Shown piece by piece: positions 9,061 to 52,866 of a DNA stretch of 53,417 nucleotides. Source of the stretch: a virus; IMG/VR virus record IMGVR_UViG_3300015194_000001, positions 1-53,417 of that record, one strand, 5' to 3'. The notes under the pieces are model-generated. The model saw only the letters and a program-made list of their open reading frames with translations, was not told the origin of the DNA and ran no database searches. Positions within the stretch are counted from its first letter, which is position 1, and every line of letters begins with the position of its first letter. The translations under genes were made by a program, and so were the position numbers.

Positions 9061-9317
9061 GCGAGCTTCAGGAGATCGTCAATCGCCTTGCGGTGTTGCC
9101 GCTTGTGCGCTACTGCCAAATCACCGGCGAGAACGCCAACGCGATTCACCAGCGCCGCCACCGCGGCGTGTGGGTCGTTGGCCGCGAGCTCCTCAAGCCC
9201 GAGGGCGGCGACTACTGGGTCGATCTAGTGGCCGTGCAGGACTGGGTCAAGGAACGCACTGGTCAAACGGTCGCGGCCCTCGTCGAGGGCCGCGTGAAGG
9301 AAGAGACGAAGCTCTAG
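9057..9317 (+). CDS. Excisionase (Xis)-like DNA-binding protein
   Basis: An 86-residue protein with the layout of small Xis-type winged-helix proteins: LVRYCQITGENANAIHQRRHRGVW, where the helix-turn-helix has the typical TG-x-x-x-x-AIHQRRxxGxW pattern, then a wing (YWVDLVAVQDWVKE). Such proteins help integrase during excision or act as small transcription factors. No integrase was recognised in the window, so a regulatory role is equally likely. It is the last gene of the plus-strand operon and overlaps the end of the converging DUF1996 gene by 4 bases. Confidence 0.7.
   Translation: MSELQEIVNRLAVLPLVRYCQITGENANAIHQRRHRGVWVVGRELLKPEGGDYWVDLVAVQDWVKERTGQTVAALVEGRVKEETKL
9272..9294. repeat. 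10-bp inverted repeat at the convergent gene junction
   Basis: CGCGGCCCTC, a 3-base loop GTC, then GAGGGCCGCG, perfectly paired. It lies in the 3' end of the Xis-like gene, just before the plus- and minus-strand transcription units meet at 9314-9317. No T-run follows on either strand, so it is not a standard intrinsic terminator. It could still hinder read-through or stabilise mRNA ends. Confidence 0.6.
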
Positions 9318-10975
9318 TTGCCGTTGAACGAGTTCATGGTGTGGCCGTTGCCGAGCATGTGCGCTTGGCAGTCGAGCAATGGGTGGATGCAGCCGTCGAG
9401 GAACCTCTTCTGAATGTCCAGCGGGATCGCGCCGAAGTAGTCGGCGTGCATCGAGACACCCGGCTTGACGATCCGACCATCGGACAAAACGATGTCACCG
9501 GGCTCTTTCAAGCTCGCATCCTGTGGCTTGTCGCTCGACAGCACCCACCGACCCGGGTCGTCGTTCGGTCCAATGGTCGTGATGACCAGCACTGCCACTT
9601 GCGGCAGCAAGATTGGATGATCCGGCATACAGCCGTTCGGCAGGATGTTCGCGGGCCACGGGCTCGGCGGGTAGGCCATGTGCGAGCCGTCAGGCTTGTA
9701 CAGGTTCACACCATCCCAGCAGTTCGCTGCGACGGCCGTCATCCACACCTCATGCCCCACGCCGCATTGAGCAAGAGTCGGGATGCGGTGAACGCCACCC
9801 GTGAAGGGCTCCGAGCTGTCGCTGGCAACAGCGATGCCATCGCACGAAAAGCCCGCGACACCCCATCGCGTGTAGCTGGTCGCGCTCGGGCCGCCAATCA
9901 CCATCTTCAAGCCGATCGGCACAGCCTGCACGGACGGGCCATCGGTCCAAGCCCCTTTCTTGTAGTAGACGATCACATCTCGCCCCGGACGTACTGTGTT
10001 GTCTTTGGTGTCGACCATCACAGGCGTCCACACTGCGCTGCAACTCACCGAGCCGCCGCGAAATGTCGATTCACAGTCAGCAAGCAGGGACGCGCTTGTG
10101 CTGTCCTTGTTGACGTTGACATTGCCGAAGAACTGGTGAAGGTGCGCAGTGTTGTCCTCGCCGGGGTGGACGATCGGATCGAACCAACCTAGCTTCGCGC
10201 GATACGCGACGTTGCGGAACGCGCCCGTGCCGTCGATGCTCGGACCGGGCCAATTGCAACCCGGCACCTTGTCGGCGGCGGTCTTGCAGTCGAAGTCGAC
10301 GGGCGGCGTGACGAGGATCTCGCGTGAGCCCGGCGTTACGGAAAGGTCAAAGCTCTTCTCGGCGATACCTGGCCAACCCGCATGCATGGTAGGTGGCGGC
10401 GGTGCAGGTGGGCATGCAGTCGCGGGCATCGTCGCCGGCGCCCAGTCCGTCACCTTCCAGTAGACCGGCGGCGTCGCAGGCACGTAGTCGCGAGTCTGCT
10501 GCCACGTCGCGCCGGGAGCAGAGCCAGCAGGGCACGACATCGACCTGAACTCGTCCTGCGGCTTGGGTGGCACGACCGGAGGCGGGCAATCACCCAGCGC
10601 TGGACTGACCGGCAGCCAGACGCCAGGCGCCCAGTAGACCGGCGCGGGTGCGCTGGCATAGGTGCGAGTCTGCTTGAACGTCGAGTCCGGCGTAGCACCA
10701 GGCGATGGGCACAGCCTCTGTCGGGTGTCATCTGCAGGCTTGGGCGGGATCGGCTTTTTCAGCGAAATCTTCGTGCTGGTCTGGCAGTAGAACGTCGCCT
10801 CCAGACCGAACGACTTGGCTTTGGCAAGGCAGTCGGGGTAGCTCGGTGTGCTGCTCAGCTTTCTCAACCCTTGGTACAGGTCGAAGGTACCGGGCGTCTC
10901 TGTGACGACCATCTGTGCGGTTGCAGCCAGCGGAATGAGGAATGCTGCGATCGCAGCGAGGAGGTGTTTCATCAT
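9314..10975 (-). CDS. Secreted DUF1996-domain protein
   Basis: A 553-residue protein with a signal peptide (MMKHLLAAIAAFLIPLAATAQ). Two similar Pro-rich modules of about 60 residues follow (DDTRQRLCPSPGATPDSTFKQTRTY and DEFRSMSCPAGSAPGATWQQTRDY segments, each leading to PVYW). The rest matches the landmarks of DUF1996: AHLHQFFGN, CWDGVNL, SHMAYPPSPWP, PDHPILLP and HADYFGAI. DUF1996 is best known from secreted proteins of fungi and actinobacteria; its activity is unknown. It is the last gene of the late cluster, directly after Rz/Rz1, so it should be expressed at lysis time. Many conserved His/Asp residues suggest metal or carbohydrate binding, but this is inference. Confidence 0.75.
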   Translation of the reverse strand: MMKHLLAAIAAFLIPLAATAQMVVTETPGTFDLYQGLRKLSSTPSYPDCLAKAKSFGLEATFYCQTSTKISLKKPIPPKPADDTRQRLCPSPGATPDSTFKQTRTYASAPAPVYWAPGVWLPVSPALGDCPPPVVPPKPQDEFRSMSCPAGSAPGATWQQTRDYVPATPPVYWKVTDWAPATMPATACPPAPPPPTMHAGWPGIAEKSFDLSVTPGSREILVTPPVDFDCKTAADKVPGCNWPGPSIDGTGAFRNVAYRAKLGWFDPIVHPGEDNTAHLHQFFGNVNVNKDSTSASLLADCESTFRGGSVSCSAVWTPVMVDTKDNTVRPGRDVIVYYKKGAWTDGPSVQAVPIGLKMVIGGPSATSYTRWGVAGFSCDGIAVASDSSEPFTGGVHRIPTLAQCGVGHEVWMTAVAANCWDGVNLYKPDGSHMAYPPSPWPANILPNGCMPDHPILLPQVAVLVITTIGPNDDPGRWVLSSDKPQDASLKEPGDIVLSDGRIVKPGVSMHADYFGAIPLDIQKRFLDGCIHPLLDCQAHMLGNGHTMNSFNGN

Positions 10976-49476: not shown

Positions 49477-49721
49477 GACGTCGCAGTCGGGGCTGAAGAT
49501 TGTTACACAAATTTCAGAAAAATTTTTGGAAGGCGATCGGACCTGGAGGCGCCACGGCGCCGACCCCTCCCGCACAGTGTACCCGTCGACCCCCTCCCCC
49601 GACACCGACCGAGCCGGGGAAGTGAGCACTAACTTACAGTTGACATAACGTCCGTTGTCGCGGCAGCACGCTTCGACACTGCCTCGGCACGAACTGTGCC
49701 AGGGTCTATGTTAGTGCCTGC

Positions 49722-49741
49722 TACTGTAAATACATACAGTA
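49722..49741. promoter_or_regulatory. LexA (SOS) box
   Basis: The 20-base site fits TACTGT-N8-ACAGTA and differs from the ideal E. coli SOS box, whose centre is a TA run, at only two inner positions. The CTGT-N8-ACAG core is perfect and the site has two symmetric flanking bases on each side. Host LexA should bind here, repressing a nearby promoter until DNA damage. It lies 257 bases before the first plus-strand gene and 351 bases before the leftward genes. Confidence 0.8.
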
Positions 49742-49852: not shown

Positions 49853-49896
49853 TTATCCACAGGTTATCCCCACGGGCTACGTGAAAGTTGTGCACA
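49853..49896 (+). other. DnaA-box cluster, candidate replication origin
   Basis: TTATCCACA at 49853-49861 is a perfect E. coli-type DnaA box. TTATCCCCA (49864-49872) follows at once, and TTGTGCACA (49888-49896) is a one-mismatch box. A neighbouring A/T-rich stretch (GTATATAG near 49916-49923) could unwind. Three boxes in 44 bases in a gene-free control region suggest an origin, unproven. Confidence 0.55.
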
Positions 49897-50321: not shown

Positions 50322-50894
50322 ATGATGTCGAAGAATCAAACCCTCGTCACTGTCACCGCACTCGCCGGCGACAAGGAATCGTCACTCGTCGCCGCTTTCA
50401 GCGATCTGCAAAAGGCGATTTTCATGTTCGTCAAGTCTGGCACGCGTAACGCGCTGGAAGATACGCGCGCCGACTTGCAATGCATGAAAGGCAAGCGAGC
50501 CGCCGCAGTGCTGGCGTGCGTCGAGTCGGCCTATGCGGCCGCGAACGTCGAATTCGCACAGTGCCCACGCGGCAACCCTGACGCCGAAGCGATCGCCGCC
50601 GCGATCGCGCTGGACGCGCGTTGCGAATTCGAAGCGGCCGAAGCGGCCGCGACCGATGCCCGCAAGGCGAAAGCGGCCGCGACGAAAGCGGCGGTCGCGC
50701 ATGCGAAAAAGGACGCGGAACGCGCGCTGAAGACTGCGGCAAAGAGTGTCGAGCCGCTTGCCCGGGCGTTGACGCTCGCCGATGCGCTCGATCTGATCGC
50801 GTCGGCATGCGTCGCCGGTGACCAGCAGGCTATCAGCGGAGTCATGGCGTGCGTGCGGCTGTTCGCTGATGTGTCGGACGCCGTGACGGCGTAA
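50322..50894 (+). CDS. Ala-rich helical protein, unknown function
   Basis: A 190-residue protein preceded by AAGGAA. Residues 1-60 are mixed (TLVTVTALAGDKESSLVAAF); residues 70-160 are very Ala/Lys/Glu-rich helix (EAAEAAATDARKAKAAATKA), and the end is a short helix with IASACVAGDQQAISGVMA. It may be a coiled-coil protein. An upstream in-frame ATG at 50283 has no ribosome-binding site. The two overlapping 16-bp hairpins start 7 bases after its stop. Confidence 0.62.
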   Translation: MMSKNQTLVTVTALAGDKESSLVAAFSDLQKAIFMFVKSGTRNALEDTRADLQCMKGKRAAAVLACVESAYAAANVEFAQCPRGNPDAEAIAAAIALDARCEFEAAEAAATDARKAKAAATKAAVAHAKKDAERALKTAAKSVEPLARALTLADALDLIASACVAGDQQAISGVMACVRLFADVSDAVTA

Positions 50895-50900
50895 CGGCCC

Positions 50901-50966
50901 GCCTAGCCCTCTAGCGGCAACGCTAGAGGGCTAGGCACTGCGCGCACAGTGCGCAGTGCCTAGCCC
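50901..50966 (+). repeat. Two overlapping, mutually exclusive 16-bp hairpins
   Basis: First hairpin: GCCTAGCCCTCTAGCG (50901-50916), loop GCAA (a GNRA tetraloop), CGCTAGAGGGCTAGGC (50921-50936), perfect. Second: GGGCTAGGCACTGCGC (50928-50943), loop of 7, GCGCAGTGCCTAGCCC (50951-50966), perfect. Bases 50928-50936 are in both, so only one can form at a time, as in attenuators. No T-run follows the second. Confidence 0.85.
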
Positions 50967-51003
50967 CTTAAAACGACGCAAGCCCGGTCGAATAGCTAAC
51001 CTG

Positions 51004-51171
51004 CTGATAGGCGGACGCCTAGGCGCACACAGTGCCCCTACGCTGACCCTAGAAGCTGGCGATCCTTAACAACGTGCCGACAGAATCGCGCCCTTAGACT
51101 GCGGCGCCGTCCTGACCCTTCCCCTACGCTGATAGGGTGACGCCTAGGCGCACAGAGTGCCCCTACGCTGA
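51004..51171. repeat. Pair of 43-bp direct repeats (iteron-like)
   Basis: 51004-51046 and 51129-51171 match at 40 of 43 bases by eye. Each contains the palindrome GCCTAGGC and ends CCCCTACGCTGA. A third copy of the end is at 51121-51132 and a partial copy of the start at 51178-51191. The spacing of the full copies is 125 bases. Confidence 0.8.
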
Positions 51172-51725
51172 ACCCGTGACGCCTAGGCTGATCGAGTCAC
51201 AGACTGCGCCCCACGCCTAGCGGTTAGCACTGTCGGACAACGCCTAGCCCGGTATCGTCTACCGGTGCGAGTCTGCTAGTGCCAGCGATGCCGCAGCGCA
51301 TCGAACCCTAGTAGGCGACAGACTCCAATCCGCTCCTAATGCTTGCCCGCAGTGGCAAGGCTAGTGCGAGCGTGTAGGGGCATCCTCCGGCCTACAGCGT
51401 CCAGCGTCTGCACAGTCCCGCCAATCCATCGGCAGGCAGAAAAGACGAGTCACGGTGTCGGTCGCGCATGCATCCAAACCCTATACCGCACCCCTATCGA
51501 TAGGCGATAGCGTTTTCGTCCGGATTGCAGTCTGTAGCAGTACAAAGCCCGGCGGTAAAACACTTCGCCGAGCCTGCACCTAGCCCCCTATGCCATCGGA
51601 ATCGAACCCGGTCTAAGCATGGTGCTAGGTGCGCTGCCGCACGCCTCGACGGCGTGTTTGACGCGCATTTCGGCCCTTTTCGAGCCTCGCGTCGAAATTA
51701 TGTCAACTCACCAAAGGATCCCATC

Positions 51726-51875
51726 ATGACTCGTCAAACCACCCCCGGCGCGATCTCGAGCTACGCCCCGCCGATCGTCAAGCACCAACCCCGCGACCGC
51801 TCGCATTCCGTGCGCCAGGCGCCGAGCCACCTGGGCATCGGCCGCCCCGCGCAATCGAAGGCAGGTCAATCGTGA
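51726..51875 (+). CDS. Small protein
   Basis: A 49-residue basic, Pro/Ser-rich protein (MTRQTTPGAISSYAPPIVKH and on to SKAGQS). AAAGGA lies 8 bases before the ATG at 51726. Low complexity and no family; likely disordered. The frame upstream to 51525 is part of the repeat region and not taken as coding. Confidence 0.5.
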   Translation: MTRQTTPGAISSYAPPIVKHQPRDRSHSVRQAPSHLGIGRPAQSKAGQS

Positions 51876-52269: not shown

Positions 52270-52333
52270 AAATAAACTTGACTTTCAACATCAGGTGATA
52301 CATTCTCCCCTCCGCTGAAAGTCAAGTTTATTT
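52270..52333. promoter_or_regulatory. 18-bp inverted repeat with -35-like TTGACT in both arms
   Basis: Left arm 52270-52287 and right arm 52316-52333 are perfect inverses (AAATAAACTTGACTTTCA and its complement) with a 28-base spacer. Each arm reads TTGACT on its own strand, a good -35; on the plus strand TGATACATT (extended -10-like) follows at a short 15-base spacing. It is likely a promoter/operator for the gene at 52366, possibly bidirectional. Confidence 0.6.
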
Positions 52334-52365: not shown

Positions 52366-52866
52366 ATGAAACCTGTCATTTTCAACCGTCGCGTGTACCT
52401 GATGAGCGACCGCTCGTGGCGCCTGTTGCTCGTGAGCCTCGCCGCTGGCGAGCCTGCCGACGACCTGGAGGAACGCTTCGGCGCGCGCTTCGTGGCCGGC
52501 CCTTGCCTCGACGTCGGCAGCCTTGACGCCGGTGACGCCAGAGCCTTGCTCGACCCTGCGTCCGCAGCTGCGCTCGACGTGGACCCGAGCGCACCACCGA
52601 CGCCACCTCAGCCGCGACGCCTCTACAAACCCTTGCGCACATCAGACAAGCTCAAGCCCAAGGCCAAGCGAGCACCTGCGCAAGCGCTCGTGACTCACGC
52701 AATCGCGCAGCTGATGGCGATCGGCTATCGCGTCACACTGCAAGGCAGGCACTACACCGTGTTTGACCCCGACGGCAACCGTGTGTTCGCCAGCAACAGC
52801 GAAGGCCTGACAACAACTACGCTCGACTCGCGCATGCTTGTCGATTTTGCGAAAGAGAGGCTGTGA
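52366..52866 (+). CDS. Hypothetical protein
   Basis: A 166-residue protein with a helical N-terminal half (RSWRLLLVSLAAGEPADDLE), a Pro/Lys-rich linker (PPTPPQPRRLYKPLR, KLKPKAKRAPAQ) and a C-terminal alpha/beta part (AIAQLMAIGYRVTLQGRHYT, VFDPDGNRVFASNSE). The linker looks disordered and basic. The first gene after the long inverted repeat, so probably early. No family recognised. Confidence 0.62.
   Translation: MKPVIFNRRVYLMSDRSWRLLLVSLAAGEPADDLEERFGARFVAGPCLDVGSLDAGDARALLDPASAAALDVDPSAPPTPPQPRRLYKPLRTSDKLKPKAKRAPAQALVTHAIAQLMAIGYRVTLQGRHYTVFDPDGNRVFASNSEGLTTTTLDSRMLVDFAKERL

Follow-up and report, generated by a model that had tools for sequence, protein, structure and literature searches.

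The region at 50895-51725 of the window, by which we mean the whole 53,417-nt stretch of DNA that was analysed, is best explained as the gene of a long untranslated structured RNA lying in the early operon on the plus strand, opposite terL, a reading to which we give a probability of about 0.58. A structured non-coding RNA was among the candidates named in a preliminary description of this DNA, and it is supported by a boxA on one strand, by a position relative to terL that is kept among relatives, and by covariation within the element of those relatives. We infer that the window region encodes the same kind of RNA as its relatives, that Nus factors bind the transcript made from it, and that function resides in the RNA and not in the DNA. 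One degenerate boxA together with synteny suggests the plus strand for the window RNA. Among the annotated and IMG/VR sequences compared, no relative is close enough to the window for a covariation test of its own element.

In the proposed mechanism, the RNA would be about 730-800 nt long, starting past the double hairpin at the end of the upstream gene and ending at the hairpins just ahead of the next start codon. Since boxA recruits NusB-S10 and Nus factors, an rRNA-type boxA early in the transcript would bring these in, and RNA polymerase would then read through the region and help the RNA to fold free of ribosomes. Nus factors at rRNA have been reported to aid RNA folding (PMC5725501). An RNA from the minus strand was favoured at first for its more stable fold and T-arm-like pieces; it was dropped as the main reading because folding z-scores, at about -4 on either strand, do not separate the two strands and the boxA lies on the plus strand.

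Genomic context

The 53.4-kb virus fragment (IMG/VR record IMGVR_UViG_3300015194_000001, positions 1 to 53,417) encodes a family A DNA polymerase, a thymidylate synthase, an SbcC-like protein, tail proteins, a head protease, a portal and a terminase. In sequence comparisons its portal and TerL share about 30% identity with those of a group of ~80-kb siphophages that includes Vibrio SHOU24, Caulobacter Seuss, Achromobacter JWF, Xylophilus Lumi and Pseudomonas UAntarctica, Lana and PMBT3. The late genes lie on the minus strand and the early genes around 50895-51725 on the plus strand. A tRNA search found no tRNA genes. The minus-strand gene at 9314-10975 encodes a phage protein in which Pfam finds a DUF1996 domain (E 1.6e-26) and which has no PHROG match. 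Where late and early genes diverge, TACTGTAAATACATACAGTA (49722-49741) closely resembles a LexA (SOS) box, and a perfect DnaA box TTATCCACA is found at 49853-49861 with a second similar stretch alongside, marking a possible origin near the divergent region. Further downstream, a long inverted repeat (AAATAAACTTGACTTTCA...TGAAAGTCAAGTTTATTT, 52271-52333) precedes the gene at 52366.

Organization of the region

The features of the region are collected in Table 1. No open reading frame of at least 60 aa overlaps 50895-51524 on either strand, in agreement with the earlier claim that the region is gene-free, and its GC content of 0.61 stays within 0.58-0.65 throughout. Neither PHROG nor Pfam gives a match to the protein of the upstream gene. 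The double hairpin arises from two perfect inverted repeats of 16 bp (50901-50936 and 50928-50966) that overlap with one arm in common; it is probably a terminator or a processing boundary on the 5' flank of the RNA. The 43-bp repeats of the preliminary description proved real and measure 47 nt, with a partial third copy in addition; its palindromes and both hairpins are likewise as it described them, the hairpins overlapping through their common arm. All three copies of the GCCTAGGC palindrome in the whole window lie in the region, at 51017, 51142 and 51181. By position, the two hairpins ahead of the next gene may be the analogue of the covarying 3' hairpin domain in the Pseudomonas-phage RNA described below. 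No promoter was found within the region. The AGTTGACATAA/TTATGTCAACT motif occurs exactly at four places near gene starts, at 49638-49648 and 51698-51708 in the window and at 1216 and 1318 in the related locus L010, and no -10 element follows it.

Table 1. Features in and around the proposed RNA gene (window coordinates)
Feature	Position	Strand	Remarks
Gene of small Ala-rich protein	50322..50894	+	Just upstream of proposed RNA
Arm-sharing double hairpin A-A'-B-B'-A	50901..50966	not assigned	7 nt past stop codon; -53 kcal/mol, z -6.4
Body of proposed untranslated structured RNA	50967..51697	+	No ORF of at least 60 aa up to 51524; folding; boxA on plus strand
Direct repeat copy 1, with GCCTAGGC and CCCCTACGCTGA	51003..51049	+	47 nt
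boxA-like sequence CGATCCTTAACAACG	51060..51074	+	Weighted boxA score
Direct repeat copy 2	51128..51174	+	47 nt, 91% identical to copy 1
Partial third repeat copy, with GCCTAGGC	51160..51197	+	
Inverted repeat GCACCTAGCCCC / GGTGCTAGGTGC	51576..51632	+	
Two hairpins just ahead of next gene	51640..51697	+	z -3.0
TTATGTCAACT motif before next gene's start codon	51698..51708	+	Present twice in L010 too
Short gene downstream of RNA	51727..51875	+	Sequence, ORF list

CTAG enrichment

Sixteen CTAG tetramers, spanning 50903-51625, fall within the 831 bases of 50895-51725, against 40 in the other 52,586 bases of the window, which is an enrichment of about 25-fold (0.63 expected at the rest-of-window rate; Poisson 2e-17). 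Base composition predicts 2.9, so that the observed number is a fivefold excess, and dinucleotide shuffles give 5.7 +/- 2.1 with a maximum of 13, none of 1000 reaching 16. The earlier count of about 16 where about three were predicted is thereby confirmed, and the density is far from equal to that of the remaining genome, the comparison that had been suggested as a check. In place of the accompanying idea that CTAG was selected as part of a site, the richness is better read as two effects, relief from the avoidance of CTAG in coding DNA combined with the use of CUAG in RNA helices and their flanks. In the ten covarying relatives of the Pseudomonas-phage type, CTAG occurs 52 times against 7.0 expected, or 7.4-fold. 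A different kind of CTAG-rich region is seen at 1-469 of locus L079, where a dense AGATGTCTAG/AGATGTCCAG tandem array holds 17 CTAG.

Position and sequence in relatives

Relatives were collected by TerL alignment, giving about 140 IMG/VR loci and two genome loci. The preliminary description had proposed conservation in related phages as a check, and here the outcome is divided: no DNA similarity to the region exists in annotated phages or plasmids, whereas its position and features recur. In the nearest relative, L010 (TerL identity 63%), the equivalent place is occupied by 861 bases free of ORFs, which hold 12 of the 19 CTAG of the locus, and despite this TerL identity the two elements have almost no sequence in common. 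The window region lies 2.5-3.3 kb from terL, and a similar distance recurs in relatives. Pooling 40 loci gives a CTAG maximum 2-3.5 kb upstream of terL, where the tetramer reaches about threefold the rate of the loci themselves; as the pool takes in the window and a few strong loci, this peak is a tendency across loci and not a rule.

Relatives of the upstream gene, 28-38% identical to the window protein, adjoin the equivalent element in L010, L012 and L019, and relatives are also found in L090/L091. The double hairpin stands right after the stop codon of this gene family in four phages (window, L010, L012, which is the same as L011, and L019) with wholly different sequences; its layout was also recognised by eye in L092, and the motif occurs elsewhere upstream of terL in L112 and L144. 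As the scan also picked up a small number of AT-rich pairs elsewhere (loci L066 and L068), the motif alone is not diagnostic. A scan allowing G-U pairs was swamped by false positives, and the alignment of the adjacent gene was too divergent to serve as a search query. Locus L004, found by GACGCCTAGGCGCACA, was rejected as a relative, the match being a chance one inside an unrelated gene. Tandem short-repeat arrays lie in or beside the element at L092 7070-7150, L138 3005-3110 and L100 8620-9070, and in part contain CTAG, as in CTGCCCTAGCGT of L138.

A covarying RNA in Pseudomonas phages

At the equivalent place, the genomes of the cultured phages UAntarctica, Lana and PMBT3 contain gaps of 842-906 bp that hold no gene and whose DNA is similar among the three; that of UAntarctica is located 2.3-3.2 kb upstream of terL, with three tRNAs about 1 kb away. 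DNA-pattern scans brought the set to ten distinct sequences, namely these three phages, L158 (with the near-identical L156 and L159) and six contigs with an exact boxA, and across the ten the element is an RNA of about 650-700 nt with strong covariation and boxA-like sequences. Among the invariant blocks of their alignment are the boxA and, as a second boxA-like copy, CACTCTTTAACA. Changes on both sides are seen in 11 of the 18 pairs of the 3' hairpin domain (30 cells against 8.5 in shuffles, 0 of 500 shuffles; at most 5 in slid versions) and in 7 of the 10 pairs of the domain that CUAACCG/CGGUUAG closes (11 cells against 2.0, 0 of 500 shuffles). The G-U pairs fall on the strand opposite terL. 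A promoter-like sequence is conserved as well, from which the transcript would be expected to start. Rfam holds no family for this RNA, and in the passages searched the PMBT3 genome paper makes no mention of an RNA at this place.

Covariance models R1 and R2, built from two domains of the Pseudomonas-phage RNA, both recover their source phages and give no match at 50895-51725. Judged by these models, the window RNA falls outside the Pseudomonas-phage boxA RNA, and it would be either an analogue or a homologue beyond detection. In its features the window does agree: an untranslated stretch lies 2-3.5 kb from terL, it is enriched in CTAG, and a boxA stands on the strand opposite terL. The two thus have in common where they lie, their strand, a boxA, an abundance of CTAG and the absence of genes.

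boxA upstream of terL

Matches to an rRNA-type boxA (TGCTCTTTAACAATT) occur in the zone upstream of terL on the strand opposite terL. The exact 12-mer GCTCTTTAACAA is present only twice in 1.6 Mb of relatives, in L008 and L100, both times in this zone and opposite terL. At a weighted score of at least 0.78 of the maximum, a site was found in 8 of 34 loci on the strand opposite terL, in none on the terL strand and in 3 of 68 control stretches (paired test p 0.016; against control p 0.006), p-values that are optimistic as the motif was picked after being sighted in these loci. The window boxA CGATCCTTAACAACG is the only site above this threshold in 53 kb on both strands; it scores 0.79 of the maximum (shuffle p about 0.017) and is degenerate, with two mismatches in the 12-nt core. 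L012 and L019, which have the double hairpin, carry no boxA above threshold. A conserved hairpin around boxA was rejected, folding of the one proposed in the window being no better than in shuffles, and so was CCCCTACGC as a general post-boxA motif, which only a few loci have.

Alternative explanations

Sites of the nut and put type are well under 150 nt, far shorter than the 650-800 nt involved in the window and its relatives, and the relatives show several covarying domains. For this reason it is possible but doubtful that boxA, hairpins and repeats form only a cis-acting leader, in which a region resembling nut or put would serve for antitermination or attenuation ahead of the early genes downstream, without an independent RNA product. 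Such a leader would fit a region inside the early operon that begins after a terminator-like double hairpin and carries a boxA, and boxA-containing nut sites are used by lambdoid and mEpimmI phages (PMC11893012). Fast-evolving intergenic filler, made of a terminator and neutral repeat expansion with CTAG escaping coding constraint, would account for sequence that is unconserved even at 63% TerL identity and for the tandem arrays at the equivalent place in L092, L138 and L100; we consider it rather improbable, given a CTAG count fivefold above composition and above dinucleotide shuffles, the positional recurrence together with boxA, and the compensatory changes in relatives.

For the two other candidates of the preliminary description, a replication origin and a packaging site, no specific support was found. 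Repeats and palindromes that could be initiator binding sites (iterons) are present, and the perfect DnaA box lies about 1 kb off, but an origin here is quite improbable: the region has no AT-rich segment (GC 0.61), its two to three irregular repeat copies do not amount to regular iterons beside an AT-rich unwinding element, the repeats are not common to relatives with the equivalent element, and the one-strand boxA and the covariation in the relatives' element point to RNA. That the region serves for packaging or forms an end of the genome close to the terminase genes is very improbable; its recurring distance from terL would suit this role, but it lies inside an oppositely transcribed early operon, no terminal-repeat signature was seen, and the relative Seuss has 1.7-kb terminal repeats at the record ends with no such element annotated there.

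Relation to known systems

As a long untranslated RNA, the product of the region would join a small set: to our knowledge, phage RNAs of large size have been described in very few cases, and what GOLLD and ROOL do is not known. A homo-oligomeric RNA cage is among the criteria for these two, and we know of no description of boxA elements or CTAG enrichment for them. They resemble the element in being large (600-800+ nt) structured phage RNAs often found near tRNAs (PMC12286853), as the UAntarctica element is near three. Rfam models including GOLLD and ROOL gave no match to the window region at permissive thresholds. The rRNA leader boxA (NusB-S10-SuhB antitermination) is resembled by the Pseudomonas-phage version, in which GCTCTTTAACAATT comes after an upstream hairpin and an untranslated RNA lies downstream; the phage RNA differs in not being rRNA and in having several boxA-like copies, and the window copy is degenerate. 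HK022 put is likewise a structured RNA in an early phage operon, but is short and works without Nus factors. A lambda nut site is marked by a boxB hairpin immediately downstream of boxA, together with an N-like protein. With lambda-type nut sites, also known from mEpimmI phages, the element has in common a boxA in an early phage operon (PMC11893012), whereas the structured RNA here is far longer.

A more speculative proposal, which we hold to be unlikely at present, is a new class of large phage RNA, fast-diverging but fixed in place, that would use an rRNA-type boxA to take over the host NusB-S10-SuhB machinery, either for its own making and folding or to draw it from host rRNA; copies of the RNA may associate with one another through the CUAG palindromes. 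The presence in cultured phages of a strongly covarying RNA that Rfam lacks and that has a host rRNA-type boxA offers a tractable system for asking why phages make large untranslated RNAs and whether rRNA transcription factors are exploited.

boxA in other viral contigs

A boxA scan of IMG/VR found 79 viral contigs (L161-L238) that carry CCGCTCTTTAACAATT, many of them in non-coding stretches and with another boxA-like sequence further downstream, so that boxA in untranslated regions of phages extends more broadly than the window's group. Among these contigs, CTCTTTAA recurs downstream in 11 loci, against 1 on the other strand. In L167, two hairpins resembling tRNA T-arms (GGTTCGATTCC) come right after the boxA, and the window has one such hairpin on the minus strand near 51598.
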